A DNA stretch of 64,000 nt from Mycobacterium sp. NBC_00419 (GTDB taxonomy: Bacteria; Actinomycetota; Actinomycetes; Mycobacteriales; Mycobacteriaceae), in contig NZ_CP107931.1 in assembly GCF_036023875.1 (NCBI RefSeq), positions 3,224,001-3,288,000 on the forward strand, in the 5' to 3' direction. How positions within the stretch are numbered: the stretch's first letter is position 1; each line of letters opens with the position of its first letter. Under the pieces are notes generated by a model. It had not been told where the DNA came from and did not search any database. It worked only from the letters and a program-made list of their open reading frames with translations. This document shows, one piece after another, positions 7,121 to 38,623 of this stretch. The position numbers and the translations under genes were made by a program.

Positions 7121-7145
7121 ATTGTGTGGGCTACGCTCTCCGACG

Positions 7146-7757: not shown

Positions 7758-7773
7758 GGTTAGGCATACCTAT
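7755..7773. promoter_or_regulatory. Predicted IdeR iron box 1 upstream of the exported-protein gene
   Basis: TAAGGTTAGGCATACCTAT matches 15 of 19 positions of the IdeR consensus. It is the first of two tandem sites in the 87-bp gap after mbtK. IdeR binds as pairs of dimers, and tandem boxes usually mark strongly iron-repressed promoters. Confidence 0.75.
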
Positions 7774-7779
7774 TGTTAC

Positions 7780-7798
7780 TTAGGTTAGTCTCAGCTAA
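7780..7798. promoter_or_regulatory. Predicted IdeR iron box 2 upstream of the exported-protein gene
   Basis: TTAGGTTAGTCTCAGCTAA matches 16 of 19 positions of the IdeR consensus, with an intact left half-site. It lies about 47 bp before the GTG start at 7845, with AAGGAGA as ribosome-binding site in between, so the box probably overlaps the promoter of that gene. Confidence 0.8.
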
Positions 7799-7844
7799 TC
7801 TCCCTCGCGGTGCCACTCGGCAATCCCATGAAGAAGGAGATTTC

Positions 7845-10638
<2,794 letters not shown>

Positions 10639-10644: not shown

Positions 10645-12240
10645 TCAGCGCTGAAGCTGCCCGACGATAGCCCGCTTGTCGACTTTGCCGACCGCGGTGG
10701 TGGGCAGCGACGCCATCGGCACCACGCTGTCGGGGCGGCAGTGCACGGCGACACCACAGGCGCCGAGATGAGCATTGAGCTCGGGCAGGGATAGCGGGGC
10801 GCCTCGGACAACGATTGCGGCGCAGATCTTCTCACCGAGGTACGGGTCGGGAAGGCCGACAGCGGCTGCCGCGGTGATCCGGGGATGTGCCAGCAGGTGG
10901 CTCTCGAGGTCCAGGGCCGATACCGTCTCGCCCGCGCGGGTGATGACATCCTTGACCCTCCCGGTGACCTCCAGATAGCCGTCGGCCACCCGGCGCACGC
11001 GGTCACCGGTGCGGTAGAAGCCGTCCGGGGTGAACGCCGTGCGATTGTCCTCGTCGGCGCGGAAGTATCCGTTGATGGTGTAGGGCCCGCGCACCAGCAA
11101 CTCGCCGGGCTCGCCCGCCGCAACCGGTGCGCCGTCATCGTCGACCACTCGAAGTTCGTCGTGTGCCGACAGCGGACGTCCCTGGGTGTGCTCGACCCGC
11201 TCGGCGGTGTCGCCGATTCTGGTGTAGCACAGCAACCCTTCGGCCATCCCGAACACCTGTTGCACACCGGGCGTCAGCGTGGTGCGGATGTGGCGGGCAT
11301 CGGCGGCGGCGAGCTTGGCGCCGCCTACCTGGAGCAGCCGTAGGTTAGTCGGGCGGTTCTCCTCCCACTCGCAGGCGTGCGCCCACAGCGTGGCGAGGGC
11401 AGGGACGAGTGCGGTGACGGTCACGCCGTGGCGAGCCATGACGGCGAATGCGGACTCCGGGCTCGGATCGGTCGTGAACACCACTGTCGCACCGGCACTC
11501 ATCGCGCCGAGCAACCCCGGGCAGGCGAGCGGGAAATTGTGGCCGGCCGGCAACGCGGCGAGGTAGACGTCGGCGGAGCTGAGCCGGCACAACTCGGCGC
11601 TGGCGGTGGCGTTGTAGACATAGTCGTCGTGGGTGCGCGGGATCAGCTTCGGGGCGCCCGTCGTTCCGCCGGAGACCAGTAGTAGGGCCGGTGTTGACGT
11701 GTCGGGCCGGCACTGCGGTATCGGCTCGTTCGTCGCACAGATCTGTGACCACGGGACGTTCGGTCCGGCGTCGCCGTCGACGATGATGTGCCGAAGTCGA
11801 TTGTCCCGGTGGGCAAGTCGCTGGGCCATGGCCTGGTAGTCGAATCTGGGGTCGCTGCCGACGATCATTGCCGCCGAACCGCTGACCTGGAGGAAATGTG
11901 CCAGTTCCGCGTCGCGGTGACCCGGTAGGCACATCACCGGCACGGCGCCTGCCCGCAGCACGCCGAACAATGCCACCGCGAACTGGCACGTGTTCGTCAG
12001 TTGCACCAAAACTGTGTGACCGCAGAGGATTCCGAGAGCGCGCAACCCCGATGCGGCCGAGTCGGCGCGCTGGTCAAGCTCGGCATAGGTCAGGCTGGTG
12101 TGCTCGTCGACGACAGCGGGCCGATCCGGCCAGTTCACCGCGGCGGAGCGCAGGATCTCGTCGAGGGCCTGCCCCCGCCAGTAGCCGGCCGCGCGGTAGG
12201 TGGCGGCACGAGCCGGCGGGAAGGGGATGAATCCGGTCAT
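10645..12240 (-). CDS. mbtA: Salicyl-AMP ligase MbtA (aryl acid adenylation enzyme)
   Basis: This ANL-family stand-alone adenylating enzyme of 531 residues is related to DhbE/EntE/MbtA. It has the phosphate loop LLVSGGTTGAPKLIPRTH, the aryl-acid pocket segment AALPAGHNFPLACPG (HNFPLA is characteristic of aryl acid ligases), QVFGMAEGLLCYT, FYRTGDRVRR and a C-terminal PTTAVGKVDKR with the catalytic Lys. It activates salicylate and loads it on the aryl carrier domain of the MbtB-like NRPS. ATG 12240 is chosen because AGGAG lies seven bases upstream; an in-frame ATG at 12273 would add 11 residues. It is transcribed divergently from mbtB across two iron boxes. Confidence 0.92.
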   Translation of the reverse strand: MTGFIPFPPARAATYRAAGYWRGQALDEILRSAAVNWPDRPAVVDEHTSLTYAELDQRADSAASGLRALGILCGHTVLVQLTNTCQFAVALFGVLRAGAVPVMCLPGHRDAELAHFLQVSGSAAMIVGSDPRFDYQAMAQRLAHRDNRLRHIIVDGDAGPNVPWSQICATNEPIPQCRPDTSTPALLLVSGGTTGAPKLIPRTHDDYVYNATASAELCRLSSADVYLAALPAGHNFPLACPGLLGAMSAGATVVFTTDPSPESAFAVMARHGVTVTALVPALATLWAHACEWEENRPTNLRLLQVGGAKLAAADARHIRTTLTPGVQQVFGMAEGLLCYTRIGDTAERVEHTQGRPLSAHDELRVVDDDGAPVAAGEPGELLVRGPYTINGYFRADEDNRTAFTPDGFYRTGDRVRRVADGYLEVTGRVKDVITRAGETVSALDLESHLLAHPRITAAAAVGLPDPYLGEKICAAIVVRGAPLSLPELNAHLGACGVAVHCRPDSVVPMASLPTTAVGKVDKRAIVGQLQR

Positions 12241-12278
12241 CGGCACGCTCCTGACGTAGGCCTGGCGAGGCATTGAAG

Positions 12279-12297
12279 ATAGGGTAGCCTTCCCAAA
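12279..12297. promoter_or_regulatory. Predicted IdeR iron box, mbtA/mbtB intergenic, site 1
   Basis: ATAGGGTAGCCTTCCCAAA matches 14 of 19 positions of the IdeR consensus. It lies in the 90-bp divergent gap between mbtA (start 12240) and the MbtB-like NRPS (start 12331) and could control both. Confidence 0.6.
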
Positions 12298-12330: not shown

Positions 12331-15300
12331 GTGACGGTGGCTCGAGCGCAGGTCGCGGACAGGGTCGCCGAGGTCCTCGGGGTCGACGCCTGCGCCATCG
12401 ACCCCGACGGCGACCTGATCGCGCAGGGCCTGGATTCCGTCCGGATGATGTCGCTGGCGGGGCGGTGGCGCCGCGAGGGACTCGATGTCGATTTCGCCAG
12501 ACTCGCGGCAGCCCCGTCGATCAGCAACTGGGTGGAACTCTTGGCCGGCGCCGATCCGGCCGAGCCGGCGCCCGCGAGCCATCCTGCGCCACAAGGGGCG
12601 CCGTTCCCCATGGCCCCGATGCAGCACGCGATGTGGGCCGGCCGCGACCCGCACCAACCATTGGGCGGTGTCGCGGGCCATCTCTACGTCGAATTCGACT
12701 GCGGCGAAATCGATCCCGATCGACTGCGGGACGCCGCCACCCGACTGGCCGCACGCCATCCGATGCTGCGCGTGCACTTCCTGCCCGACGGTACCCAACG
12801 CATAGGCGCCGTGCCCACCACCTACCCGGTACAGGTCGAAGATCTGCGCGCGATGCCCGAGGACGCCGTTGCACGGCGGCTCGAGACGATCCGTCAGACC
12901 AAGTCGCATCAGCAGTTGCAGGGTGAGGTGTTCGAACTCGCGCTGACCCTGCTGCCGGGGCGGCGCACCAGATTGCACGTCGATCTCGACATGCAGGCCG
13001 CTGACGCCATGAGTTATCGCACCCTGATGACCGACCTTGCCGCCCTCTACAGCGGTGTTCAGCTGACCGAAATCGGGTACACCTATCAGCAGTACCGCCA
13101 ACAGCTTTCACGTCCCCGAGCCTTCGAGTCCGATCGCGCGTGGTGGCACGGGCGGCTCGCCGGCCTTCCGGAGGCACCCACGCTGCCGCTGATCTCGCCT
13201 GGGCAGCAGAAAGACCCGCACCGCACCGGGCGCCGCTGGCACTGGCTCCCCCCACGGACCCGCGACGGGTTGTACGAACTCACCCGACGCCACGGCGTCA
13301 CCCCGGCGATGACGATCGCAGCCTCATTCGCCGATACCGTCGCCGGCTGGTCGGCCGACCCCCACTTTCTGCTCAACGTACCGATGTTCGGACGCGAACC
13401 ACTGCACGCCGATGTCGACAAGGTCGTCGGTGACTTCACCTCGTCGCTGCTGCTCGACGTCGACCTGGCCGCGGCCGCCACCGCGACGGAGCGCTCCCGC
13501 GCGTTGCAGCGCATCCTGCACGAGGCAGCCGGCCATGCCGCCTATCCGGGTGTGTCGGTGTTGCGGGACCTCAGCAGGCACCGCGGAGCACAAGCGTTGG
13601 CGCCCATCGTGTTCACCAGTGCCCTGAGCCTCGGTGAGCTGTTCTCACCCGAGGTCAGCGAACAGTTCGGACGCGCGGTGTGGATCATCTCGCAGGGCCC
13701 CCAGGTACTGCTGGACGCTCAGGTCACCGAGTTCGACGGCGGCATCCTGCTGAACTGGGACGTCCGCGAGGACGCCTTCCGACCCGGGGTGATCGACGCG
13801 ATGTTCGCCCGGCATGTCGAGGAAGTCCTGGCGCTGGCCCGCGACGAGGCCGCCTGGGACGCCCCGCGCGGACCACGACTGCCTGCGTGCCAGAAGTCCG
13901 TTCGGCAGGCCGTTAACAGCCGGGTCACCGAGCCGAGCGGAGAGATGCTGCACGACGGCTTCTTCGAACTCGCCGCGCACCAGCCCGACGCACCTGCGGT
14001 GTTCAGCGATACCGGCACCCTGACGTACGGGCAACTGCGCCGGCAAGCGCTCGCTGTCGCTGCAGCGCTGCAGGCAGCCGGGCTCGACGGCCGAACGGTT
14101 GCCGTGCTGGGACCCAAGAGCGCAGAACAGATTCCGGCCCTGCTGGGGATTCACGCGGCTGGATGTGCCTACCTGCCGATCGGCGCCGACCAGCCGCCCG
14201 AGCGGGCGCGGCGCATGCTGACCGGCGCCGGCGTGGACTTCGCGTTGGTCTGCGGTACCGGGTGGACCGACGTGCCTGTGCCGATGTTGACCGTGGCCGA
14301 GGCCATCGACCGCGGCGCGGACACGGAACCCCAAGTGGTGAGCGCCGATCCCGACCGGCTGGCCTACGTGTTGTTCACCTCCGGCTCGACCGGTGATCCC
14401 AAAGGGGTCGAAATCACTCACGCCGCCGCGATGAACACCGTCGAGTTCATCACCGACCACTTCGGTATCGGCCCCGCCGATCGCTGCCTGTCGGTCTCGA
14501 CGCTGGAATGCGACATCTCGGTCTTGGACGTCTTCGCCACCCTGGGCACCGGCGGCGCGATCGTGGTGGTCGACGAGGAGAAACGTCGTGACCCCGACCA
14601 CTGGGTGCGGCTCATCGAACGCCACGGCGTCACCCTGCTGCATTTCCTGCCCGGCTGGCTGGCCATGCTGCTGGAGGTCGCGGGGCCGCTGCCCACCGTG
14701 CGGGCGGTGCCCACCGGCGGGGACTGGGTCACTCCCGCGATGGCACGACGGCTGCGGAACTGCGCACCCACTGCCCGCTTCGCCGGTCTGGGCGGGGCCA
14801 CCGAGACCGCCATCCACAACACCATCTGCGAAGTCGGCGACGTTCCTGCGGACTGGACCGCGATCCCGTTCGGCACGCCGCTGCCCAACAACCGGTGCCG
14901 CGTCGTGGCACCCGGCGGCGACGACTGCCCGGACTGGGTGGTCGGTGAACTCTGGATCGGTGGACGCGGACTCGCCCGCGGCTACCGGGGCAGGCCTGAC
15001 CTGACGGCGCAGCGGTTCGTTCAACACGACGGCATCACCTGGTATCGCACCGGAGACCTCGCACGCTTCTGGCCGGACGGGACGTGTGAGTTCGTCGGCC
15101 GGGCCGATCACCGCGTCAAGGTCAGTGGCTACCGGGTCGAACCCGGTGAGGTCGAAGCGGCGCTGACCCGAGTACCCGGTGTGCTCGGCGCTGTCGTCGT
15201 CCCGGTACCGGATACGACCGGCTCCCGGGCGCGGCTCGCTGCCGCCGTTGTGACCGCCGACGAGCAGGTACAGACCGACACGGTTCGTGCCGCGATCGCC

Positions 15301-15759
15301 ACAATGCTTCCGCCGCATATGGTTCCACAGCACATCGTGCGCTTCGATCAGATCCCCTACACGGTCGGCGGCAAGGTGGACCGGCGCAGCGTCGCGCGCA
15401 GTCTGGCGGCGTTCGCCGAGACTGCGACTGCCCACCGGCCTCCGTCGAACTCGCTGCAGGCGGCGCTGAGCACGATCGTCGCCGGAGTCCTCGACCGTTC
15501 CCGGGTAGGCGTCGACGACGACTTCTTCGCCCTTGGTGGTGACTCCGTTCTGGCCACCACCGTCGTCGCCCGGATCAGGCAATGGCTCGACGTCCCGACC
15601 GCGAGCATCGCCGACGTCTTCGCCGGCCGCACCGTTGCGGGTATCGCCGAGCGCCTCGGAGCCCTCGAACCGCACCGACGACTCGAAGAGGTTGCGCAGG
15701 TGTACCTCGACGTCGCCGCGATGGACACCGCCCAGGTCACTGCGGCACTCGCCGGCTGA
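12331..15759 (+). CDS. mbtB: MbtB-like NRPS: aryl carrier - cyclization - adenylation - carrier
   Basis: An assembly-line enzyme of 1142 residues. Domains: aryl carrier 1-75 (GLDS, Ser36); heterocyclization domain about 92-510 with the Cy signature D-x4-D-x2-S as DMQAADAMS (220-228); adenylation domain about 550-1040 with [12 protein letters not shown] (681-692), CDISVLDVF (Asp728 aligns with Asp235 of GrsA) and GGATETAIH, the GGATE variant usual in cyclizing modules; carrier domain with GGDS (Ser1072). It joins salicylate to Ser, Thr or Cys and forms the five-membered ring. M. tuberculosis MbtB (1414 aa) ends with a thioesterase, and none is present here. GTG 12331 follows AGGGAGG. Confidence 0.9.
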
Positions 15760-15799: not shown

Positions 15800-18700
15800 A
15801 TGACTGACACCCTCGAGGCCGAGCGGCTGGAACTGTTGCGCCGCAGGCTCGCCCAGCGTGGCCTGCGTGCGAAGCCCGCCGCCGTGGACCCCGCGGCGAT
15901 GACCGACAGCCAACGCCGCCTGTGGTTCGTCCACTCCATCGACAGCACCGGGGCCGTGCTGAACGTCTGCGTGTCCTACCGGCTGACCGGCGAGCTCGAC
16001 CAGGCTCGGCTGCGTGACGCGATCAATCGCGTGGCCGCGCGGCATCAGGTGCTGCACAGTACGTATCACACCGGTCCGGACGGTGAGCCGCAGATCACGT
16101 TGCGGCACAACCTGACACCCGCCTGGACCGAACACGACCTGTCCGGTCTGGGCCAACAGGCGCGCCGGCTTCGACTCGAGGTCATCGCACAGCGGGCCTT
16201 CAGCACCCCGTTCGACCTCACCGCCGACGCGCCGCTACGCACGACGTTGGCACGGCTGAGTGCCACCGAACATGTTCTGCTGCTCACCGCGCATCACATC
16301 GCCTGGGACGACGCGTCGTGGCGGGTGTTCTTCAGCGACCTGACCCGGGCCTACCAGGGCGTGGCCCTCGAGTCTGCGCCCCCGGCGCCAGCCCCGGCGA
16401 CGGAACAGGACCACGCGGACCTGGACTACTGGCGCACCGTGCTCGCCGATCCGCCCGAGCCGCTCGAACTGCCGGGTCCCAGGGGTTCGGTGGTCCCGCA
16501 GTCGTGGCGGGCCGACAGGTGCGTCGCTCCGCTGAGCGCCGCGACCGTCGACGCCGTGACCGACCTCGCGCGCGAGACGGGTGCGACACCGTATGCCGTT
16601 CTGCTGGCGGCATTCTCGGCTGTAGTGCACCGATACACCCACGCGGAGGACTTCCTGGTCGCCGCACCGGTGCTCAACCGAACCTCCGACGATGTCATCG
16701 GATACCACGGAAACACCGTGGCGATGCGGATGCGCCCGAGCCGGTGGGTGACCTTTCGCGACCTGGTCGGCGCTGCAGGAGAGGCCACCCGCGGGGCATT
16801 CGCCCACCAGCGGGTGAACCTCGACCGGGTGGTGCGCGAACTCAATCCCGACCGTCGCCACGGCGTCGAGCGGATGGCCCGGGTCGGGTTCGGCATGCGC
16901 GAGCCCGACGGTCACGGCTTCTGCCCGGACGGCATCCGGTGCGAACGCGCCGACCTGCGCGGCCAGTATGCCCAATTGCCAATGGGTTTCATGGTCGAGT
17001 TCAGCGGTGACGGTGCGCAGGTGGAAGCCGAGTACCTCACCGAGGTGCTCGACGACGACCTGGCGCGCCGCCTCCTCGACAGTTTCACCGTGCTGCTCTC
17101 CGACGCCCTGGCGCGACCGGATAGCGCCCTGGCAGATCTGCAGGTCCTCGGTGCCGAGGACGCCGGGCGGCTCGACCGGATGTCTCGGGGTGATGAATTC
17201 GCCTGCCCGCCAGAAACTCTCGGTTCGTTGATCGCGCAGCGGGCGGCGATGCAGCCGGACGAGACGGCAGTCGTGTACGACGGTCGCCACTACAGCTACC
17301 GCGAGATCAACGCCGAAGCCAACCGTATCGCGCACCGGCTGATCGCCGCGGGCATCGGGGCCGAAGACACCGTCGCCGTCCTGCTCGGCAAGTCACCCGA
17401 GTTGGTGACCACCGCACTGGGCATCGTCAAAGCGGGCGGTGTCTACCTGCCCGTCGATCCCGAGTATCCCGCCGAGCGAATCGCTCACATCCTCGCCGAC
17501 GCCGATCCCGCCATGGTTGTCCGGGAACCGATATCAGGAATCGGCAGCTTCCCGGCAACCGACCCGGCTCCCGCTGACCTGGTGCGGCCGCTGACTCCCG
17601 CCAACACCGCCTATCTGATCTACACCTCGGGGTCGACCGGACTGCCCAAGGGTGTTCCGGTTCCGCACGCCCCGGTCGCCGACTACTTCCGCTGGTTCCA
17701 GCAGGAGTACGGCATCGGTCCCGATGACCGGCTGCTACAGGTCGCCTCACCAAGTTTCGACGTGTCGATCGGCGAGATCTTCGGCATCCTGGTCCAGGGC
17801 GCCCGACTGGTGATCCCCCGCCCGGATGGACTGCGCGATATCGGGTATCTCACTGACCTGCTGCGCCGCGAAGCCATCACGGCAATGCACTTCGTCCCGT
17901 CGCTGCTGGCGTTGTTCCTGTCGCTGCCCGGCGTGGAGCAGTGGCGCACCCTGCGCCGGGTCCCGATCGGTGGCGAGGCCCTGCCCGGTGAGCTGGCCGA
18001 CAAGTTCCACGCCACCTTCGACGCACTGCTGCACAACTTCTACGGCCCCACCGAGACGGTGCTGAACGCCACCCGGTTCAAGGTCGAAGGCCGGCAGGGC
18101 ACCGGGACGGTGCCGATCGGCACGCCGAAGATCAACACCCGGATCCATCTGCTCGACGACGCCCTGCGACCCGTTCCGGTCGGGGTGATCGGTGAGATCT
18201 ACATCGGTGGAACACATCTGGCCCACGGATATCACCGCAGGGCCGCCCTGACAGCGGAGCGCTTCGTCGCCGACCCGTTCACATCCGGCGGGCGGCTCTA
18301 TCGTTCGGGCGACCTCGCCCGGCGAAACAGCGACGGCGACCTCGAGTTCGTCGGTCGTGCCGACGAGCAGGTGAAGATCCGCGGTTTCCGTATCGAACTG
18401 GGGGAGGTCGCGGCAGCTATTGCCGTGGATCCCAGTGTCGCCAATGCGGTCGTCGTCACCGCCGAACTACAGCAACTCGGCAAGAGCCTGGTCGCGTATC
18501 TGACGCCTGCCGGGGAAGCCGTGCAGATCGACCGGGTCAAAGCCCGGGTCGCCGCCGCACTGCCCGACTACATGGTCCCGGCGGCGTATGTCGTCATCGA
18601 CCAGATTCCGGTGACCGCCAACGGCAAGCTCGATCGGGCGGCCCTGCCGGATGCGGAGATCGGACCGGTGGCGCGGTACCGGGCGCCGGCGACCGCGACC

Positions 18701-21700
18701 GAACGCAGCATCGTCGCGCTGTTCGCCAGGACCCTCGGAGTCGACGAGGTTGGCTGTGACGACTCGTTCTTCGAGCTCGGTGGGCACTCGCTGCTGGCGA
18801 CCAAACTCGTCGCAGCGATTCGCGCCGCCAGCGGAGTGGAACTCGGTATGCGCGAGGTGTTCGAACGCGGCACACCGGGGGAGATCGCCGCGCTGGTCGA
18901 TTGCCGGCGGCAGACGCAGACCGCGCCGAGCAGGCCCGTGCCCGTCGCTCCCGGTGACGAGGCCGAGCCGTGCGCTTTATCGGCAGCGCAGCTGCGGAGC
19001 TGGTTCCAGTACCGGGTCGACGGACCCAGCCCGGTCAACAACGTCCCCTTCGCCGCCCGCCTCACCGGGCCGTGCGACCTCGATGCGCTCACCGCCGCGG
19101 TGGGCGACGTGATCGCCCGCCACGAGATTCTGCGCACCGTCTACCGGGAGGTCGACGGCGTCGCCCACCAGGTCGCCGAACCCGTCGACGCCGTGGTGGT
19201 CCGGCGCCTCACCGGAAGCGGCGAGCCCTGGCTGACAACCCAACTCGATGCCGAACGCAACCACTGCTTCGATCTGGAAGCGCAGTGGCCGATCCGCGTC
19301 GCGGTGCTGACCACCGGCGACGAGTCCGTGCTGTCGATGGTGGTACACCACATCGCCGCCGATCACTGGTCGGCCGGCGTGCTGTTCACCGACCTGCTCA
19401 CCGCCTACCGCGCACGGCGGCACACCGGATGTCCGCCGCCCTGGGACCCGCTGCCACTGCAATACCGCCACTACGCGGGTTGGCAGGCCCAGCTGCTGTC
19501 CGACCTCGCGGCGACCGGAACGCAACGGGACTACTGGACCACCCAACTCGAGGGTCTGCCGGAGGACACCGGACTGCGGCCGGATCTCCCGCGCCCGCCG
19601 GTGGCCGGCGGGCCGGCGGCCTCGATGCCGTTGCGCGTCGACGCCGAAACCCGGCAGCGTCTCGTCGCACTGAGTCGTGAGCTCGGTGTCACCGAGTTCA
19701 TGCTCCTGCAGGCCGCAGTCTCGGTCGTCCTGCACAAGTCCGGCGGCGGTGACGACATCCCGCTCGGCACGCCGGTGGCCGGTCGCACCCACGCCGAATT
19801 CGATTCTCTGGTGGGATTTTTCGTCAACATCCTGGTCCTGCGCAATGACCTGTCGGGCAATCCCACGCTGCGCGACATCATGGTGCGGTCCCGAGAGATG
19901 GCGCTGGCCGCCTACGCCCATCAGGACCTCCCGTTCGACCGGGTTGTCGATGCCGTCAACCCGGTGCGGTCACTGTCGCGCAACCCGCTGTTCGGCGTCG
20001 TCGTCCACGTCCGCGAGGAACTGCCGGAGAACCAGATCATCGACTCCGGACCCGACGGAGACACCGTATTCTCAGCGCTGGAGCCGACATTCGACATCGC
20101 CCATGCCGATCTGAGCGTGAACTTCTTCGTCGGCGACGACGGCTATCGCGGTCACGTCATCTACCGCACCGAGCTGTACCACCCGGCGACCGCGCACCGG
20201 TTCACCGGCTGGCTGCGCCGAGTGATCGACGCATTCGCCACCGGTCCCGATACCCGGCTCCGTGACCTGGTCCTGCTCGACGACGCCGAACAGGCCGCAA
20301 TTCTCGCCCGCAGTCGGGGTCCCGTCTCACCCGCCGACCGGCCACGGACGGTTCCGCAGCTTCTGGAGGCGAACCGGCCGCACGACACGAGCCGCGTTGC
20401 CGTCCGGTGCGGCGACCAACAGATCGACTACGCCGAGCTGCATCGCCGTTCGGACCGTTTCGGCCATCTCCTCGCCGGCCGTGGTGTCGGCCCCGGATCG
20501 CTGGTGGGTATGTCGATGCGCCGCGGCATCGACATGGTGGTCGCACTCGTGGGCATCATGAAGGCCGGCGCCGGCTTCTTCCCACTCGATCCCGGCTATC
20601 CCGCCGCCCGCAAGCAGGCCATGCTCGACGACGTCGGCCCGGCAGTCGTGGTCGTGACCGCCGACGCCGCCCGCACGATGCCACCGGCAGCCGGGCTCAC
20701 CGTGATCTCGATGGAGGATGCGGCAGTCCGGGCGGAGCTGGGCTCCACCGATCCGCAGGCCACTCTGCCGCCGCCGCGCCCGGACGACCCGATGTACCTG
20801 ATGTTCACCTCGGGCTCGACGGGCAAACCCAAAGGCGTGGTGGGAACACACCGCGCCATGAGCACCAGACTGTCCTGGCAGGTCCGGCACTACCCGGTGG
20901 CAGGGCGGGACATTCGGCTGGCACAGGCGCCGATGACCTTCCTGGAAGGCTGTATCGAGACGCTGGCGGGACTGTGCGCAGGCGCCACCCTGATCCTCGC
21001 CGACGACACCGAACACCGCGACGCCGAAGCCCTGGCGGCAATGATCGAGAAGAATTCGGTCGAACAGGTCACCGCCGTCGCGAGTTTGGCTGCTGCCCTT
21101 GTGGACTGCGCACCGGGGGCGGTCCGCTCATTGCAGCGCCTTGTCTGCTGCGGAGAACCAGTGAGTGCCGCTTTGCTGGATCGGCTTTCCAGGTGCGTCG
21201 GGCCCGAACACCCCGGTGAGCTGCTGAACGCGATCGGCGCAACCGAGACATCCGGGGCGCTGGTGCGCGGCCCGCTTGAGGCGCCCGTCCCGAAAATCGG
21301 TGTGCCGATGGAAGGGTCACAGGTATACCTGCTCGACGACGCACTCAGACCGGTTCCGGTCGGCGTGGTCGGCGAGCTGTACTACGCCGGTGAGCAATTG
21401 GCCCGGGGCTACTGGAAGCAGCCGCGCCTGACTGCCACCCGGTTCGTCGCCAACCCCTATGCCGCCGAGGCCGGCGCCCGTTTCTACCGCAGCGGTGACC
21501 GCGGGCGGTGGACCGAGGACGGCAGGCTGGAGTTCGTCGGCAGAACCGACCACCAGGTCAAGGTGCGGGGCTTCCGCGTCGAACTCGCCGAAGTCGAGGC
21601 TGCGCTCAAGCAGGCCGACGGTGTGGCAGTCGCGGCCGCGCGCACCTGGGACGGCCCAGGCGGTACCGCCCTGGCTGGGTATGTGGTCGCCGATCATCCG

Positions 21701-22222
21701 GTGGCCGATCCCGCTGCATTCACCGCCGCGGTGCGGAGCTCGGTGGCGGCCACGCTGCCGGGTTACATGGTGCCCGCGACGATCTCGGTCCTGTCGGCGA
21801 TGCCGAAGACAGAGTCCGGCAAGCTCAATCGACCAGGTCTGCCGCGGCCCGAGGTTCACACGACAGGGCAGCGCGAGCCGGCCAGAGGCCACACCGAACG
21901 CGCCGTGGCCGCGGTGATGGGCGAACTTCTGGATGTCGCCGGGATCGGGCGTGACGACGAGTTCTTCGCTCTCGGCGGTGACAGCATCCTCTCGGTGCAG
22001 TTGGCTTCCCGGCTGCGCGCCAAGGGATTCCAGGTCCAACCGAGGATGATCTTCGAACATCCGACCGTCGCGTCACTGGCCGAGAGGATCGACGCAACCC
22101 GGGAGTCGGGTGAGAGCACCGACCCGCAGGACATGCGACACCCGCCGATGACGGTCTCCGGCCTGTCGGCCGGTGATCTGGACGCGCTGAGGTCGTCATG
22201 GTCACAGGATCGGCCGTCGTGA
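15800..22222 (+). CDS. Bimodular NRPS (C-A-PCP-C-A-PCP), MbtE-like with an extra module
   Basis: This NRPS has 2140 residues; the start is ATG 15800 rather than 15794 because AGGAG ends at 15793. Module 1: condensation domain (HHIAWDD near residue 164), adenylation domain ([12 protein letters not shown] near 608; [10 protein letters not shown], where Asp keeps the alpha-amino anchor), carrier GGHS near 995. Module 2: condensation (HHIAADH near 1183), adenylation ([12 protein letters not shown] near 1669), carrier GGDS near 2060. In the second A domain the A4 motif reads [10 protein letters not shown], so the Asp235 position is Leu, and the A5 motif is GATETSG. Loss of this Asp suggests a substrate without a free alpha-amino group. 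In mycobactin, MbtE has one module and a PKS (MbtC/D) adds the next unit; here module 2 occupies that place. Confidence 0.9.
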
Positions 22223-25200
22223 CGGCCACTGATATCGAGGACGTCCTGGCCCTATCACCGCTACAGCTGGGCCTCTTCTCCCACGCCACCCTGCTCGGGC
22301 CCCGCACCGACGATCCGTATGTCATCGCGATGTCCGCCGATATCACGGGTCCGCTCGATGTCACCCTGCTTCGGGATTGCGCGGCAACGATGTTGAGCCG
22401 TCACCCCAACCTGCGGGTCAGCTTCTGGCACGACGACCTGCCCCGCCCCGTCCAGATCGTGCCCGCCACCGTCGACGTGCCATGGCGCCACGTCGGTACG
22501 ACGGCTGACCAGGCGCGAGGGATCGAAGAGGCCGAACGCGGCCGGCCGTTCGATCTGGCTCGCGGACCGTTGATCCGATTCCTGCTGCTCGAGCTACCGG
22601 ACCAGAACTGGCGCCTGGTCATCACCGCACACCACATCGTGATCGACGGCTGGTCGCTGCCGGTGTTCATCAGCGAACTGCTCACGCTGTACCGCCACGG
22701 CGGCAAACCCGACACGCTCGCGCCCCCGCGGTTGTACCGGGACTACATCGGCTGGCTGGCCGAGCGCGACCCGCGCGCCGACGAACGGGTGTGGCGCCAA
22801 CATCTTTCGGGGATGCCGGGGCCGACACTGTTGTCAGCCGCGCTCGGCAGCCCCGGTGCCGGCTTGCCCACCCGCACCGGGATCACCCTGCCCGACGACG
22901 ACACCGAACACCTCGCCGCCGCCGCCCGAGCCCGTGGGCTCACCCTCAACACCGTGCTGCAGCTGGCGTGGGCGTTGATCCTGTCCCGGCTGACCGGCCG
23001 TGATGACGTCGTCTTCGGTGTCACCGTGTCCGGCCGTCCCCCGGAGCTGACCGGTGTGGAGACCATGGTCGGCCTGTTCATCAACACCATCCCCCTGCGG
23101 GTCAGGGTGAACCCTAACCACACTGTGGCCCAGCACTGTTCGAACCTGCAGCGCGAGGCCGCTGAGTTGCGCGACCACAGCTACCTGACCCACGCCGAGT
23201 TGCGTTCCCTGGCAGGGGTTGGGGAGATGTTCGACAGCCTGCTGGTCTACGAGAGCTTTCCACCCGGCGACGTCGTCGGCGGACAGGAGTTCACCGCGGG
23301 TTCGGTGTGCTTCCGGCCCGCTGCCATGGAGAGCCTGACGCACTTTCCGGTCACCGTGGCCGCGCACCGTAGCGGTGCGGGCCTGACGTTGATGGTCGAG
23401 GTCACCGACGGAGCCCTGGGGTCGATGACCCCCGACGGGCTGGGCAGGAGAATCCTGTCGGTGATGCGCGACCTCGTCGAGGGGTGGGACGCGCCGCTGG
23501 GCCAGGTGAGCATCGTGCTCGACGGGGAGACCGCCGGCCGCGCCGAGGCAACTCGGTCAGCTCCCGAGTTCTCCGGCGGCGTCGCTGAACGGTTCGCCAG
23601 AACTGCTGCCGAGCATGGTGATTCGATAGCGCTGCGCTGGTCGGGCGGCGAGCTGCGTTACCGGGAGCTCGACGAGCGTTCGGATCGACTGGCCGGGCTG
23701 CTCGCCGAGGCGGGCGTCGGTCGTGAGACGCCAGTGGCGATTCGGTTGCCCCGCGGCGGCGACTATGTGATCGCCATGCTGGGTGTGCTCAAGGCCGGTG
23801 GCATGTACGTGCCGCTCGAACCCGCCATGCCGCCTGCGCGGATGCGCTCGATGATGGCCCAGTGCGGCGCCACCGTCGTCGTCGACGAGAACACCATGGC
23901 CGCTGCACGGCACGCACCGCGACTGCGGGTGCCGGCGTTGCCGGACCAGGCGGCCTACGTGGTGTTCACCTCCGGCACCACCGGAGAACCCAAGGGCGTC
24001 ATCGGAACTCACCGCGCACTGCTGGCCTACATCGACGACCATGCCGACCGGATGCTGGGGCCGGCGGCCGAGCGCCTGGGTCGCCCTCTGCGGATCGGGC
24101 ATGCCTGGTCGTTCGCATTCGACGCGGCCTGGCAGCCGCTGGCCGGATTGCTGTCCGGGCACAGCGTGCACATCGTCGACGAGGACGATCGCCGCGACGC
24201 CGACGCGCTGGTGCGGATCATCGGTCAGCACGGGATCGACATGCTTGACGTCACGCCGTCGCTGTTCGGCCACCTGCGCCAGGCTGGACTACTGGAGGCC
24301 ACCGATCTTCGAGTGCTCGCCCTGGGCGGCGAGGCGGTCGGCTCGGCCGACTGGGACGACATCCGCAAGAGCTGCGCCGCGGGTGTGCTGGCGGCCCACA
24401 ACTGCTACGGCCCCACCGAGGCGACCGTCGAGGCCGTGGTCGCGGCGATCGGCGATCACGAGGCACCCGTCATCGGCCACCCCACCCGTGGAACCGACTG
24501 CCTGGTCCTGGACGCCTGGCTGCATCCGGTACCCGACGGTGTGGTGGGCGAACTCTACCTGGCCGGACATCAGCTGACCCGAGGCTATCTGGGCCGCCCT
24601 GCCGAGACCGCCACGCGTTTCGTCGCCACCGCCGGCGGTCGCCGAATGTACCGAACCGGTGACCTGGTTCGCCGGAACACCGACGGCGCTGTGGTTTTCG
24701 TGGGACGGGCGGACGCTCAGATCCAAGTCCGGGGACATCGCGTCGAGCCGGGCGAGATCGAGGCCGTGCTGGCCGCGCTGCCCGGTGTGCGGCAGGTGCA
24801 CGTGGCTGTGCACCGTGAGGCGGCGGGTCCGCGGCTGGTCGCCTACCTGGTGGGCGAGGTGACGGTGCCCGACCTACGCGCGGAACTGCGCAACCGGTTG
24901 CCGCGCTACATGCGGCCGCATCGGGTGATCGTCGTCGACACCATCCCGCTGACCACCAACGGGAAGGTCGACGACGTGGCACTGGCGGCCATGGTCAGTC
25001 CCGAGGACACGGCCGCCCCGCCCTGCACGCCGACCGAGATCGCACTGGGGCGCGCGATCGCAGAGCTACTGAACCTCGAGGAGGTCGACATCGATGCCGA
25101 TCTCCTGGAACTCGGGCTGGACAGCATCGTCGCGCTGTCCGTGGTCCAGACCGCCCGTCGCGGTGGCCTGTCCCTGCCCGCGCGGCTGATCCAGGAGAGC

Positions 25201-26472
25201 GCGACGCTTCGTGAACTCGCCGCCGCGGTCGACCGCGGTGCCGCCGACGAGAGTGTTTCCGGTCCGGAGCCGCAAGGGCCGGTTCCCGCGCTGCCCAACG
25301 TGCACTGGCTCTACGAGCACGGCGACCCGCGGCGGCTCGCACAGGTGCAGGTGGTACCGCTGCCGGACGGCACCGGCGCCGAGCGACTCCGCTCGCTGCT
25401 CAATGTCAGTGCCGCCACACACGAGATGCTGCGCAGCCGGATTGATCTGTCGACCATGACCTTTAGGGCCGACGGGCCGGGGACCATCCCGTTGACCGAG
25501 ATCGAGGTGGCCGGGGATCCGGCGGCCGCGACCGCCGAACATGCCGGGCCAGCCATCGAACGGCTGGACCCCCAGCAGGGCCGGCTGGTCGAGGCTCTGT
25601 GGCTGCACCGGCGTGCCGAGGCCGGCGTGTTGGTGCTCGTCGCACACGTGCTGGCGATGGATCCCGCGTCGTGGCGCATCGTGCTCGGTGAACTCGCGGC
25701 GGGCCTGCAGGCTCCCACCGGTCTCGAGCCGATGCCGGAGCGGGTCAGCTACCGCCGATGGGCGCACCACGCTGCCGGTCGGGTGGCCGCTCTGGACACG
25801 GTGGACTTCTGGCTGGCGCAACTCGAGGGTGAGGATCCGGCATTGGGCGCCAGACGGATTCGGCCCGGAATGGACCGGGCCGGTGATGTCCACATCACCG
25901 TGACCGCCACCGAGGCCGAGGTCACCGCGCAACTGCTCCGCGGCAGGCGGCCGATTCAGGATGCCCTGGCCGATGCCTGCGCGCGGATGGTCGACCGATG
26001 GCGGGCAGCTCGCGCGCAGCGTGCCGTTGTCCCGCTGCTCGCACTCGAAACGCACGGCCGTGCCGGCGGCGCCGATGACACCGTGGGGCTGCTCAGCGCC
26101 ATCTATCCGCTGCGAGTCCAGCCGGGCCAGCCGATGCCGGAGATTGACGGGCGAGCAGGGGATTACGCGCTGCTGCGCTATTGGCGTGCCGACACCGCCG
26201 AACGGTTGCGCGGCCTGCGTGAGCCCCAGATCCTGCTCAACTACCTGGGCCGCCTCGACGGTCTCCCGGCGACCGGGGACACCCTGCCCGCAGACCTGCT
26301 GACGGTGCCCGAACCGAACGCGGCAGTCCGCCATGAGCTGACCCTGATCGTCGCGGTGAGCGGCGGCCGACTGCTGACCCAGTGGCGCACCATCGCGGAC
26401 ATCTTCAGCCAACGGGATGTGGCTGAGCTGCAGACGATGTGGCAGACCGCACTGTGCGAGGTGGTTCGATGA
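22198..26472 (+). CDS. mbtF: MbtF-like terminal NRPS (C-A-PCP-terminal E/C-like domain)
   Basis: The enzyme has 1424 residues against 1461 in M. tuberculosis MbtF and the same architecture. Condensation domain with intact HHIVIDG near 145; adenylation domain with [11 protein letters not shown] near 590, [11 protein letters not shown] near 640 and NCYGPTE near 736; carrier LGLDS near 973. The C-terminal domain (about 1030-1424) is epimerization-like, with degenerate AHVLAMD and the E-type motifs [12 protein letters not shown] and LLNYLGRL. In mycobactin this terminal domain is thought to release the chain by cyclizing the last hydroxylysine to a lactam. A pocket acidic residue (Asp in IDMLDVTPS) fits a basic substrate such as lysine. 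ATG 22198 overlaps the previous gene; GTG 22219 (GTGA overlap) is an alternative start. Confidence 0.88.
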
Positions 26473-27749
26473 CTTTGGTGATCGTCGGCGCAGGCGCCAA
26501 GGCGGTTGCAGTCGCGGCCAAGGCTGCGGTGCTGCGCGAGATGGGGGTGGCGGCCCCCGACATCGTCGCCGTCGACAGCCGGACGGTTGCGGGCAACTGG
26601 CATGCGGTGGGCGGGTGGACCGACGGCAGGCACCGGCTGGGTACCAGTCCGGACAAAGATGTCGGATTCCCCTACCGCTCAACACTTCTGCCCGGCCGAA
26701 ACGCTGAACTCGACCAGCGGATGACCCGGATGAGCTGGCAGTCCTATCTGGTAGCCCGCGGTGGGTTCGCCGAGTGGATCGACCGGGGGAAGCCCGCGCC
26801 GACCCACGAGATGTGGGCCGAGTACCTACGGTGGGTCGCCGACCGCGCCGGATTGACTGTCGTGCGCGGTGAGGTCATCGGACTGTCGCTCGACGGTCCG
26901 CAGTGGATGGTGCACACCCGCGACGGCGGTGTCCGCGGTGACGCGGTGATGATCACCGGTCCCGGCCAACCGGACCGATCGGTGCTGCCGGGCCACCCGC
27001 AGGTGCTCTCCATCGCCGGGTTCTGGGAGCTCGCTTCCCGCAGACAGCGGATCGATGCCGAGCGGGTGGCGGTGATCGGGGGTGGCGAGACCGCCGCATC
27101 GATGCTCGATGAGCTGTTCCACCATCGGGTCTCGACGATCACGGTGATCTCCCCGCAAGCGACGTTGTTCACCCGGGGCGAGAGCTTTTTCGAGAACCGG
27201 TTGTTCAGTGACCCGACGGACTGGCCGGGCCTCACCCTTGCCGAGCGGCGTGAGGTGATGGCCCGGACCGACCGGGGAGTGTTCTCGGCCCGCGTGCAGG
27301 ATTCGCTGCTGGCCGACGACCGCATCCGCCATCTACGCGGACGGGTCGCCCATGCGGTGGCGGCTGACGGGCGAATCCGGATCACGTTGCAGACCGATCA
27401 GTGCGGCGAGCGGCTGGAGACCGTGCACGGTTTCGATCTGGTGATCGATGGATCAGGCGCCGACCCACTGTGGTTCCTGCCGCTACTGGGCCAAGACACG
27501 CTGGACCTGATCGAGGTCGCACTCAACGCGCCGGTCACCGGTGACCTGCTGCAGCACGCCATCGGCGCTGATCTCGCCCTCGTCGGGGTGTCACCGAAGC
27601 TGTTCCTGCCCAACCTCTCCGGGCTCGCGCAGGGCCCTGGCTTTCCCAACCTGAGCTGTCTGGGGCTGCTGTCCGATCGCATCCTGGGCGCTGACCTCAA
27701 CCAGACCGACCCGAAGATCAGGAGAAACCATGAGTACCAATCCGTTTGA
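26469..27749 (+). CDS. mbtG: Lysine N6-hydroxylase MbtG (flavin monooxygenase)
   Basis: This 426-residue protein (M. tuberculosis MbtG has 431) starts with the FAD-binding segment [21 protein letters not shown]. It then has the substrate-region motif [14 protein letters not shown] and a second dinucleotide motif [18 protein letters not shown] for NADPH, followed by [18 protein letters not shown]. MbtG hydroxylates the lysine side chain to make the hydroxamate iron ligand. The start ATG 26469 overlaps the mbtF stop as ATGA. Only one hydroxylase is visible in the island, so it would serve every hydroxamate position. Confidence 0.92.
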
Positions 27750-27960
27750 CGATGACGCGGGCCAGTTCTATGTCCTCGTCAACGACGAGGAGCAGCACAG
27801 TCTGTGGCCGGCATTCGCCGAGATCCCCAGTGGGTGGCGGGTCGTCTTCGGTGTATCGGCTCGCGGCGACTGCCTCGACTTCGTCGAGCAGCACTGGACC
27901 GACATCCGGCCGAGAAGCCTGCGGGAGGGAGGCCTCGACAGTGCCGCCCTGCGGTGCTAA
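27730..27960 (+). CDS. mbtH: MbtH-like NRPS accessory protein
   Basis: A 76-residue protein with the full MbtH signature: [24 protein letters not shown], then [10 protein letters not shown], and [17 protein letters not shown]. MbtH proteins bind adenylation domains and are needed for their folding or activity. The gene overlaps the end of mbtG by twenty bases and is the last of the NRPS operon; the iron box of ESX-3 begins 12 bp after its stop. Confidence 0.95.
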
Positions 27961-27971: not shown

Positions 27972-27990
27972 TTAGTTTAGGCAACCCTAA
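27972..27990. promoter_or_regulatory. Predicted IdeR iron box upstream of eccA3
   Basis: TTAGTTTAGGCAACCCTAA matches 16 of 19 positions of the IdeR consensus. It lies between mbtH and the GTG start of eccA3 (28007), where GAAAGG serves as ribosome-binding site. ESX-3 is known to be repressed by IdeR in mycobacteria; no separate Zur-type site was recognised. Confidence 0.8.
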
Positions 27991-28006: not shown

Positions 28007-29800
28007 GTGGGCCTGGAGGCGGACCTGGTCAGCCGGTTCGCGCACTGCTGCAGAGCGTTGGGCCTCCCGGTCTACGACCGGCGCAGGCCCGCGGACCTCA
28101 TCGCCGCGAGCCGCGGCTTCACCGAACTGACCCGCATTGCCCACGACCAATGCGATGCATGGACGGGCCTTGCCGCCGCCGGTGCCACCACACCGGACGT
28201 ACTGGCCCAGGTCGTCCGCACCGTCGACACCAGCGGAGCATTGCAGCGCCGGATCGAACTTCCCGCCGGGACATTGGGATTCGACTATGACACCGGTCTT
28301 TATCTTCGGTTCCGTGCCACCACACCGGATGACTTCCAGCTGGCACACGCCGCCGCGAAAGCCAGCGAAGGACAGTTCGCCGCCGCCGACGACGCGCTAA
28401 GCGCGGTCCGCAGGCGGCGGCCGGACTGGTGGGAGGCCCGCTGGGTCGACGCGGCCCTGCACTACCGCGCCCAACGCTGGTCGGATGTCGTCAAGCTGCT
28501 GACCCCGGTCGTCGGCGATCCCGCACTGGACCCGGTGTCCGGGCATGCGGCACGGGTTTGTCTGGGTATCGCGCTGGCCCGCCTCGGCATGTTGGCGCCG
28601 GCGCTGTCGCATCTCGACCAGCACGACGGCCCGGTTGCCGTGGCGTCCCTCGACGGTGCCCTCGCCAAGGCCTTGGCGCTGCGCGGCTACGGGGACGAGG
28701 ACTCCGCGGCCGACGTCCTGCATGAGGTGTATGCGGCCAATCCGGGCAACGAGCAGGTCGAGGCCGCGCTGTCCGACCCGACCTTCGGCATCGTGACCAC
28801 CACCGCCGCACGCATCGACGCCCGGACCGATCCGTGGGATCCCGAAACAGAGCCCACCGCAGCCGACTTCATCGACCCCGAGGCTCACGACCGCAAGATG
28901 GCACTCCTGCAGGAGGCCGAGCGGGAGCTGGCCGAGTTCATCGGGCTCGAGGAGGTCAAGGATCAGGTTGCGCGGCTCAAGAGCTCGGTCGCTATGGCAT
29001 TGCGACGGGAGGAGCGCGGCTTGGCGGTCGCCCAGCGGTCGCATCACCTGGTCTTCGCGGGCCCGCCCGGGACCGGTAAGACGACCATCGCCCGGGTGGT
29101 CGCCAAGATCTATTGCGGTCTGGGCCTGCTCAAGCGGGAGAACATCCGCGAGGTCCACCGGGCTGATCTGATCGGTCAGCACATCGGTGAGACCGAGGCC
29201 AAGACCAACGCCATCATCGACAGCGCGCTGGACGGTGTGTTGTTCCTCGACGAGGCCTACGCGTTGGTGGCCACCGGAGCTAAGAACGATTTCGGTCTGG
29301 TGGCCATCGACACCTTGTTGGCGCGGATGGAGAACGACCGCGATCGGCTGGTGGTGATCATCGCCGGGTACCGTGCCGACCTCGACCGGTTCCTGGACAC
29401 CAACGAGGGTCTGCGCTCGCGGTTCACCCGCAGCATCGACTTTCCGTCCTACACCGCAGGAGAGCTCGTCGAGATCGCCGGTGCGATGGCCTGCCAGCGC
29501 GACAGCGTCTTCGAGGCCGCCGCACTCGAAGACCTCGAAGCGCTCTTCGAACAGTTGGCGGGTTCCACCACACCGGACTCGGCGGGTGTCGCCAGGCGCA
29601 GCCTCGACATCGCGGGCAACGGACGCTTCGTCCGCAACGTCGTCGAACGGTCGGAGGAGGAACGCGAATTCAGGCTCGACCACACCGGGTCCGCCGGCGA
29701 AGACTTCACCGACGAGCAGTTGATGACGATCACGGCCGCCGACGTGCGGAGTTCGGCCGTCCCGCTGCTGCGCGGTCTGGGCCTGTTGGTTCCGGCATGA
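28007..29800 (+). CDS. eccA3: ESX-3 AAA+ ATPase EccA3
   Basis: This protein of 597 residues (631 in H37Rv) has an N-terminal TPR-like helical domain (about 1-260) and a CbxX/CfxQ-type AAA+ domain. The latter shows Walker A FAGPPGTGKTTIARVV near residue 352, Walker B GVLFLDEAYAL near 412 and the arginine-finger region NEGLRSRFTRSIDFPSY. It is the cytosolic ATPase that acts on ESX-3 substrates and their EspG chaperone. GTG 28007 is chosen for the GAAAGG about 8 bp upstream and because nothing upstream in frame remains after the iron box. It is the first gene of the ESX-3 operon. Confidence 0.93.
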   Translation: MGLEADLVSRFAHCCRALGLPVYDRRRPADLIAASRGFTELTRIAHDQCDAWTGLAAAGATTPDVLAQVVRTVDTSGALQRRIELPAGTLGFDYDTGLYLRFRATTPDDFQLAHAAAKASEGQFAAADDALSAVRRRRPDWWEARWVDAALHYRAQRWSDVVKLLTPVVGDPALDPVSGHAARVCLGIALARLGMLAPALSHLDQHDGPVAVASLDGALAKALALRGYGDEDSAADVLHEVYAANPGNEQVEAALSDPTFGIVTTTAARIDARTDPWDPETEPTAADFIDPEAHDRKMALLQEAERELAEFIGLEEVKDQVARLKSSVAMALRREERGLAVAQRSHHLVFAGPPGTGKTTIARVVAKIYCGLGLLKRENIREVHRADLIGQHIGETEAKTNAIIDSALDGVLFLDEAYALVATGAKNDFGLVAIDTLLARMENDRDRLVVIIAGYRADLDRFLDTNEGLRSRFTRSIDFPSYTAGELVEIAGAMACQRDSVFEAAALEDLEALFEQLAGSTTPDSAGVARRSLDIAGNGRFVRNVVERSEEEREFRLDHTGSAGEDFTDEQLMTITAADVRSSAVPLLRGLGLLVPA

Positions 29801-31341
29801 CCGAGCCCCAACCCGAGGACGACCGGCGGTCGTTCTCCTCCCGGACGCCGGCCAACGGCAACCCCGACCGGGTGACCTACCGGCGCGGGTTCATCACGCG
29901 ACACCAGGTCAGTGCGTGGCGCTTCGTGATGCGCCGCGTTGCCGCCGGGCTCGCGTTGCACGACACCCGCATGCTCGTCGAGCCGCTGCGCAGCCAGTCC
30001 CGCGCGGTGTTGATGGGAGTGCTGCTATCGGTGACTGCGGTGCTGGGCTGTTTCGTCTTCTCCCTGCTACGCCCCGGCGGTGTGCCGGGCAGCGACCCCG
30101 TGCTCGCCGACCGGTCGAGCGCCGCGCTCTACGTGCGGGTCGACGGCAAGCTGCATCCGGTGCTGAACCTGACCTCGGCGCGGCTGGTGAGCGGACGGCC
30201 CGTCGAGCCGACCATGGTCGACAGTGATCAGCTCGACCGCTTCGCCCGCGGCAACCTGATCGGCATTCCGGGCGCACCGGAACGCATGGTGCAGAACACA
30301 TCCCGAGATTCCGCCTGGGCGGTGTGTGACGGCACCGACGCGGGCCCAGACTCCGCCGGCGTCACGGTGATCGCCGGACCGGTCGACCGCAGCGGTGCGC
30401 GCGCAGATGACCTCCCGGCCTCCGAGGCCGTCCTGGTCACCGGACCCGAGGGCACCTGGCTGTTGTGGGGCGGGCGGCGCAGTGCGGTCGATCTGGCCGA
30501 CCGGGCGGTGGCCGACGCACTCGGTCTGCCCGCTACAGGCGTTGCAGCCAGGCCCATCTCGCCCGGGTTGTTCAACACCATCCCGGAAGGCGCGGCGCTG
30601 CGGGTTCCTCAGATCCCCGGTGCGGGACTGCCGCCGGGGTTCGAACTTCCGGTCGCCGCTCCGGTCGGGGCTGTGCTGATCGCCTACCGCACCGACGGCA
30701 CCCCGACCAACTACGCGGTGCTGCCGGACGGACTGCAACCCGTCGGACCGGTGCTGGCCGCGCTGCTGCGCAACGCGAACTCCTACGGCTTTGCACAGCC
30801 CCCGACGCTGACGGCTGACGACGTTGCCCGCCTTCCGGTGTCGTCGCAGATGGACGTGACGGCCTACCCCGACCAACCCGTCGCACTCGTCGACGCCCGG
30901 GAAGCGCCCGTGACATGTTCGCTGTGGCAGCGAGCCGACGGCGCGGCAATGAGTTCTCTGACGCTGCTGTCGGGCCCAACGCTTCCGGCGCCTGACGGGT
31001 CGCACCCGGTCGACCTGGTCGGCGGGAGCAACCCGGCCACGGCGGCCCGCGTGACGTTGCCGGCCGGTCGTGGTTACTTCGTGCGGACCGTCGGTCAACA
31101 GGACAGCTCGCCGCCGTCGGGCGCGTTGTTCTGGATCTCCGACACCGGGGTGCGCTACGGCATTGGCGCAGATTCGTCGACTGCCGAAAAATCCGTCACT
31201 GCGCTGGGTTTGACGCAGCCACCACTTCCGATGCCCTGGTCGGTGCTGAGTTTGTTCGCCCCGGGCCCGGCGTTGTCCCAGGCCGATGCCCTGGTCGTCT
31301 ACGACGCTGTCCGAAGCGGTATCGAGCAGGGGGCCAGATGA
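29797..31341 (+). CDS. eccB3: ESX-3 core membrane component EccB3
   Basis: The protein has 514 residues (538 in H37Rv). A short cytoplasmic N-terminus contains [20 protein letters not shown], one membrane helix near residues 69-90 ([19 protein letters not shown]) follows, and then a long periplasmic domain with the family repeats and conserved Cys in SAWAVCDG and APVTCSLWQ. EccB forms the periplasmic part of the type VII membrane complex. The start overlaps the eccA3 stop and the stop overlaps the eccC3 start, both as ATGA. Confidence 0.93.
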
Positions 31342-37194: not shown

Positions 37195-37207
37195 TTGGAG
37201 AACCACA

Positions 37208-37788: not shown

Positions 37789-37791
37789 GAC

Positions 37792-38607: not shown

Positions 38608-38623
38608 TCAGGAGAGAACAACG

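Follow-up and report, generated by a model that had tools for sequence, protein, structure and literature searches.

The window, a 64,000-nucleotide stretch of Mycobacterium sp. NBC_00419 (bases 3,224,001–3,288,000 of G000, a one-contig genome of 5.6 Mb), contains at positions 7,122–27,960 a mycobactin-type siderophore cluster that is free of ketosynthases (KS) and whose MbtE-position protein, a non-ribosomal peptide synthetase (NRPS), has two modules. In the textbook account of mycobactin biosynthesis the polyketide enzymes MbtC and MbtD count as necessary and MbtE as invariable. Here the polyketide synthase (PKS) block appears to have been lost, and an ancestral second adenylation domain of MbtE (A2) is proposed to load a small beta-amino acid, giving an amide-linked mycobactin; on balance we lean, if only slightly, towards this reading as a whole. 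The strongest result is genomic, namely an A2 that appears ancestral, its fossil in classical MbtE and its sole survival in one clade, and the chemistry is a prediction from it. No description of a PKS-free mycobactin cluster or of an MbtE A2 domain was found among titles and opening abstracts of the open-licence literature.

Genes of the window were set from open reading frames (ORFs) and domain scans; coordinates are those of the window, on the plus strand unless stated otherwise. The cluster runs in the order mbtK-type gene, gene for a 477-amino-acid (aa) protein, mbtI, mbtA, mbtB, dimodular mbtE, mbtF, mbtG and mbtH, and the classical features present are salicylate synthase, an MbtA-type ligase, the cyclization domain (Cy) of MbtB, module 1 of MbtE, MbtF, MbtG and MbtH. 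The original prediction, which was made from the letters alone, had named homologues of mbtA, mbtB, mbtF, mbtG, mbtH, mbtI and mbtK without a ketosynthase. The domain scans bear this out, and none of the 24 ketosynthase (PF00109) matches across the whole genome falls inside the window.

The mbtE gene (15800..22222) specifies a protein of 2,140 aa in which Pfam finds two stretches each of AMP-binding, Condensation and PP-binding, that is, C1-A1-T1-C2-A2-T2 (condensation, adenylation and thiolation domains). Its open frame spans 15,533–22,222, and the start was set at 15,800 because the database copy has 2,140 aa. Its closest named relative is in Mycobacterium sp. DL592, with an A2 region 91% identical. 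The predicted two-module protein is thus real, and the cluster layout agrees with the claim that module 2 stands at the hydroxy-acid position. A1 (17228..18652) reads DVGHVIFLNK, a code shared with other mycobacterial MbtE proteins; C2 (18971..20305) is approximately 55–67% identical to the second condensation domain in MbtE of mycobacteria not belonging to the clade described below; and A2 (20351..21844) has the code LEITVCAGAK, which lacks Asp235 and carries Glu236. The MbtF code, DAQDLLCVEK, is presumably of the lysine type. Since the A1 and MbtF codes match those of relatives, both lysine positions look unchanged.

MbtC and MbtD were sought in the genome as a whole. The best score obtained with the MbtD model NF037940 was 203.5 bits (cut-off 1,150), its matches lying in long PKS frames and smaller enzymes. 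The MbtC of M. wolinskyi as query found no close homolog: its identity to long PKSs did not exceed 43%, and to the three standalone KS genes it stayed below 30%. Because the whole one-contig genome was searched for both proteins, their presence elsewhere was rejected on the PF00109, NF037940 and M. wolinskyi MbtC searches, and with it the case named in the original prediction as fatal to it, an intact mbtC/mbtD pair at another site. The end of mbtB (15,759) and the start of mbtE (15,800) are separated by about 40 bases, which hold no mbtT (the remainder of the genome was not searched for this gene). In M. wolinskyi and M. colombiense mbtB, mbtT and mbtC are consecutive, with mbtD and mbtE next; in loci L026 and L027 mbtB, mbtT and mbtC overlap or abut, followed by mbtD and mbtE, the ORF at the mbtT position having a Pfam Thioesterase match in L026 only. 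As mbtT-mbtC-mbtD is contiguous in these relatives and mbtB lies beside mbtE here, one deletion suffices.

The same layout is found in a group of related species. MbtB was searched against one genome per species (84,980 species), which returned 137 stretches with a relative, the best 80 of which were kept. Among these 80, 12 loci with MbtB identities of 70–75%, including those of M. sphagni, M. vinylchloridicum and M. pinniadriaticum, stand apart from the remainder at 58–63%. None of the 12 shows an MbtC or MbtD match and all possess A2 (77–82% identity), a layout whose recurrence in 12 of 12 is not chance; nor did any of their 12 genomes yield MbtD over the cut-off (best 258 bits, against 1,454 for the M. 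wolinskyi control). Two further genomes of the clade show the same cluster layout, and the clade comes out as monophyletic in an 80-row MbtE tree, with 100% support in the Shimodaira–Hasegawa-like approximate likelihood ratio test (SH-aLRT). An environmental mycobacterial clade, hereafter the sphagni clade, therefore appears to build its siderophore without the usual polyketide enzymes.

The genus was surveyed in 297 genomes with thresholds of E≤1e-180 for MbtD, E≤1e-140 for A2 and E≤1e-170 for A1 of MbtE, which were matched in 219 (169 of them over the curated cut-off), 87 and 216 genomes, respectively. Among the 216 mbtE-bearing genomes, 197 have MbtD, alone in 129 and together with A2 in 68; A2 occurs without MbtD in 17, and both are missing from two. 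The presence of MbtD or A2 in 214 of the 216 fits two routes to one position. The 17 A2-only genomes are exactly those with A2 at 77% identity or more, and are the sphagni clade including the window genome. Two A2 carriers lack an mbtE match, G294 (an incomplete assembly, 74% identity) and G076 (with stops inside A2). As a side observation, 22 genomes of the survey match MbtD and have no close MbtE. Also, the MbtB loci of M. triplex (L046) and M. ahvazicum (L069) carry the MbtB code of the window, with PKS matches upstream and no MbtE in the locus; in both genomes A2 lies elsewhere.

The order of genes was established for ten clusters, of which eight lie outside the clade and two belong to it. 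In six of the outside clusters (L125, L126, L127, L131, L132 and L133, L131 being that of M. colombiense), MbtD is directly followed by a C-A-T-C-A2-T2 protein. In the other two (L123 and L124) MbtE consists of C-A-T-C, fewer than 100 residues, and then T2. Across 31 loci without a whole A2, the stretch behind C2 was matched best by A2, above A1, the MbtF A domain and the MbtB A domain, in 29; the other two (L074 and L085) have too little sequence left behind C2. The sequence extends to T2 in 19 of the 31 loci, and 12 end earlier. The remnant corresponds to the A6–A7 region, the nucleotide- and substrate-binding part being gone. On the MbtE tree, a quick search with long branches flagged among the outgroups, the domain states need two changes in all, the remnant-bearing rows forming one group of 32 inside Mycobacterium and one of three in other genera. 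Outside the genus, full dimodular proteins are present in Aldersonia (L164) and Speluncibacter (L159), and in Rhodococcus opacus, known here from the protein alone. The 20 kb read at the Aldersonia and Speluncibacter loci contain no MbtC or MbtD match, and the genomes of both have no MbtD over the cut-off.

The A2 remnants in classical loci, the co-occurrence of A2 with MbtD and the presence of A2 outside the genus indicate, at the level of sequence, that the dimodular MbtE is the old form and the classical MbtE is derived from it by decay, and that the clade of the window lost the mbtT-mbtC-mbtD block and kept A2. Hence the claim that an extra module replaces MbtC/MbtD holds in part: the cluster is PKS-free, whereas gain of module 2 in exchange was rejected, A2 standing beside MbtD in 68 of 216 genomes, occurring outside the genus and being found decayed in classical MbtE. 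A whole clade appears to manage without the PKS, and the classical MbtE is what decay has left of an older enzyme. Variation in this region has been reported before. The size of the MbtE AMP-binding region is described as strain-dependent within the M. avium complex (PMC4570654), and the available text of PMC4810606 describes a short mbtE deletion in M. avium subsp. paratuberculosis, which, placed on the M. colombiense MbtE, would fall in A2.

The substrate codes of the A domains were read at the ten GrsA positions via motif anchors, and these positions agree with those in the available text of PMC11253843. The code LEITVCAGAK is found in all 12 clade loci. In a set of 84 dimodular proteins (2,050–2,249 aa) the A2 codes are LEMTVGNGAK (37), LEITVCAGAK (28) and LEMTVSNGGK (19), Leu235 and Glu236 being present in every one; four proteins from three other genera have LDLTVS[SAG]G[GS]K and thus Asp236. 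The motifs A3, A5, A7, A8 and A10 of A2 look intact in the commonest forms listed, and stops inside A2 were found in none of the 17 clade genomes. A quick A-domain tree was made from 87 rows, comprising six of the 85 mycobacterial A2 domains, four outgroup A2 domains, the window, 23 domains with Asp or Glu236 and without Asp235, 43 with Asp235 and 10 others. In this tree A2 forms one clade (100% SH-aLRT), nested in a 25-row clade (98%) with 14 domains, all of which have Asp236 and lack Asp235. SF[VIL]D and G[AS].E motifs are common to A2 and most of these 14. When checked for motifs of the beta-alanine type, the outgroup A2 domains show LD and SFLD, with GTTE at A5 in one and GATE in three of the four, and the mycobacterial A2 domains show LE, mostly with TFLEG and GATE. 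Codes of the neighbouring domains, e.g., VDMTISLADK, resemble VDWVISLADK, which we take to be the beta-alanine code. Among the nine other A domains of the window genome none was found with Asp236 and without Asp235; one was unreadable at 235–236 and one reads WS.

A residue other than Asp at 235 speaks against an alpha-amino acid, and the acid kept in the A2 pocket would fit an amino rather than a hydroxyl group. Unit X, as the original prediction called the residue after amino acid 1, can in this way be narrowed, the A domain having a signature of the beta-amino-acid type (no Asp235, and a clade with Asp236). That A2 loads a beta-amino acid, most likely beta-alanine, seems to us somewhat probable. 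In the proposed route, the contiguous mbtT-mbtC-mbtD block between mbtB and mbtE would have been deleted and the ancestral A2 retained, leaving A2 alone in the cluster to load the unit that sits between the two lysines. This domain would charge T2 with a small beta-amino acid, beta-alanine or possibly 3-aminobutyrate; C2 would join this unit to the salicyl-oxazoline-hydroxylysine chain by an amide in place of the ester of mycobactin; MbtF would add the cyclic hydroxylysine; and hydroxylation and acylation would fall to MbtG and MbtK. The expected product, an amide ("aza") mycobactin, would have a backbone as long as that of mycobactin. Its middle link probably differs from that of textbook mycobactin, in keeping with the earlier expectation of a non-classical product, which we likewise hold to be probably right. 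The amide, if present, would be harder to hydrolyse than the ester.

Several observations weigh against this route. A2 coexists with MbtD in 68 genomes, and the M. avium group, including the A2-bearing M. colombiense, makes ester-type mycobactins; in such species A2 may be silent, conditional or specific for a hydroxy acid. Mycobacterial A2 carries Glu rather than Asp at 236. Nine of the 23 sampled domains with Asp or Glu236 and without Asp235 fall outside the 25-row clade, and residue 236 alone is therefore not diagnostic. The beta-amino-acid label depends on resemblance to the code VDWVISLADK, and the substrates of the 14 neighbouring domains are putative. Two mbtE-bearing genomes, G097 and G134, lack A2 as well as an intact MbtD, which speaks against a strict either-or rule. 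Their clusters (L155 and L156, respectively) are fragmentary, with an MbtD stub or pieces and a broken MbtB or MbtF, and a stop codon lies within the G097 stretch; this points to decay, with assembly error as the alternative, and the two clusters are possibly a snapshot of loss. Finally, beta-amino-acid domains of the VinN type are described as retaining Asp235 (PMC11253843).

The nearest competitor is that A2 loads a free 3-hydroxy acid, such as 3-hydroxybutyrate, and that ordinary ester mycobactin is made without a PKS, which we regard as unlikely rather than remote. A2 stands where the PKS unit would come in, and one route has been lost, or both are kept, in most mbtE genomes. C2 of classical MbtE forms the ester, and the C2 of the window is approximately 55–67% identical to its counterparts outside the clade; the ester mycobactins of A2-bearing relatives with MbtD point the same way. 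The missing Asp235 has a parallel in alpha-hydroxy-acid domains, as reviewed in PMC11253843. However, the hydroxy-acid domains covered in that text put a small neutral residue at the place of the acid, whereas in all 84 proteins A2 has Glu alongside, at 236, and the tree places it among Asp236 domains. It is distinctly improbable, in our view, that A2 is inactive and that a 3-hydroxyacyl unit reaches T2 in trans from another PKS or from fatty acid synthesis, again to give ordinary mycobactin. Large PKS genes do exist elsewhere in the genome, and the MbtE of L123 and L124 has T2 with no whole A2. Yet the motifs of A2 are kept, none of the 17 clade genomes has a stop inside it, and its pocket residues do not vary, LEITVCAGAK being read in all 12 clade loci and in 28 proteins. 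Least probable of all, and by our estimate very much so, is the version of the original prediction, in which a gained extra module inserts an alpha-amino acid to yield a madurastatin-like peptide. Collinearity and the completeness of the C-A-T module favour it, but the module is old and widespread, and the alpha-amino anchor at 235 is Leu in 84 of 84 proteins. The last point is not decisive alone, McyG being a known exception, a Phe-activating domain without Asp235 (PMC11253843).

The beta-amino-acid reading can be taken further, in a form that we consider doubtful: the ancestral line used a beta-amino-acid loader, of which the textbook MbtE is a fossil, species with both A2 and MbtD make an ester and an overlooked amide series, and the sphagni clade makes the amide alone. 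The finding raises the matters of the cargo of T2 in MbtE, the route of the 3-hydroxy unit, and a possible undescribed second siderophore in many species.

Compared with the classical mycobactin synthetase (mbt-1), the window has homologs of mbtI, mbtA, mbtB, module 1 of mbtE, mbtF, mbtG and mbtH, with an A1 code close to, and an MbtF code equal to, those of relatives; it lacks the mbtT, mbtC and mbtD genes that lie between mbtB and mbtE there, and has a full A2 where 29 of 31 compared loci have a remnant. The dimodular MbtE of slow growers and Mycolicibacter (M. xenopi, M. kansasii and M. malmoense among others, by protein) shares C-A-T-C-A2-T2 and Leu235-Glu236 with the window; it differs in its A2 code (LEMTV[GS]NG[AG]K versus LEITVCAGAK) and in having MbtD alongside in the six clusters read. 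The synthetases of Aldersonia, Rhodococcus opacus and Speluncibacter have the same domain order, their A2 being 50–53% identical and carrying Asp236. Among characterized siderophores, the kasichelins and madurastatin join a phenol-oxazoline and a hydroxamate via a beta-amino acid, as is proposed here, the linkers given in the available text of PMC12305651 being beta-alanine and beta-aminoisobutyrate. Unlike the window, kasichelin is described there as made by three separate NRPS genes and as ending in an N-hydroxyornithine lactam, and no membership is claimed.

The remaining genes of the cluster are as follows. An mbtK-type GNAT N-acyltransferase (7122..7757; PF13523, 147.7 bits), whose homolog adjoins mbtH in L132 and L133 (58–59% identity), is followed by an Ala-rich protein of 477 aa (7773..9206) that matched no family in the Pfam scan. 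The salicylate synthase gene mbtI (9178..10638) scores 548 bits with TIGR03494 (cut-off 325). The aryl-acid AMP ligase of mbtA type (10645..12270, minus strand; start codon provisional) matches PF00501, and TIGR02275 at 583 bits, under the cut-off of 723. In the Pfam scan mbtB (12331..15759) is ArCP-Cy-A-T (ArCP, aryl carrier protein) with the A-domain code DILHVTLIHK and no thioesterase domain, and mbtF (22198..26472) is C-A-T followed by a terminal C domain. The C and A domains of MbtF in L125, L126 and L127, which have the same lysine-type code, are only 46–52% identical to those of the window, against 57–62% in five other loci. The lysine N-monooxygenase-type gene mbtG (26439..27749; PF13434) is 65–73% identical in eight mbt loci outside the clade, and mbtH (27730..27960) matches PF03621 with 94.9 bits.

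Directly behind mbtH lies an ESX-3-type locus (28007..42242), with family matches in the order eccA-eccB-eccC-pe-ppe-esx pair-espG-eccD-mycP-eccE, the first WXG100 match of the esx pair being under the cut-off. Among solved structures its EccC is closest to EccC3 (6lar, 592 bits over residues 1–435; 455 bits for EccC5). The locus itself was read in the window, in L128/L129 and partly in L130, and EccB was searched in 27 genomes. In 15 of 15 clade genomes the best EccB match lies 9–10 kb downstream of A2 on the same contig. This was the case in none of the 12 non-clade genomes, 11 of which have it on a different contig or at a distance exceeding 0.5 Mb, and G315 at least 60 kb away. A second EccB copy (61–62%) was found in four clade genomes; in the window genome the next match is at 36%. 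The linked copies group with these second copies on the EccB tree (94%), in which the row canon_G133 was ignored (wrong reading frame, end branch of 10). In two clade genomes (L193 and L194) a second ESX-3-like locus has approximately 0.7–1.0 kb between eccC and espG, and because there is so little room pe and ppe genes are probably absent from it. ESX-3 is linked to mycobactin use or iron uptake in other mycobacteria (PMC9505556, PMC4791881), and three mycobactin genes are reported within the ESX-3 locus of Segniliparus rotundus (PMC4791881); the neighbourhood therefore has precedent, as far as that text describes it, although in this Mycobacterium clade an entire NRPS cluster lies directly beside a complete ESX-3 locus.

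Sites resembling the IdeR box were sought with its known consensus. One lies between mbtH and eccA (27972..27990; three mismatches, and none in 100 shuffles), with a similar site at L128:18867 (two mismatches). Weak sites with five mismatches each precede mbtK (7102..7120) and separate mbtA and mbtB (12279..12297), the latter with the identical 19 letters in L128 and L134. Siderophore synthesis and a linked secretion system thus share one stretch with iron-box-like sites. Next to the ESX-3 locus is a siderophore-interacting flavoprotein (42258..42980; PF04954, PF08021), and just past these iron genes is a LigD primase-polymerase gene (42959–44170, minus strand). Elsewhere in the genome, two other large NRPS loci were noted, at G000:C1:915000–950000 and 1292000–1325000 (L167–L170).

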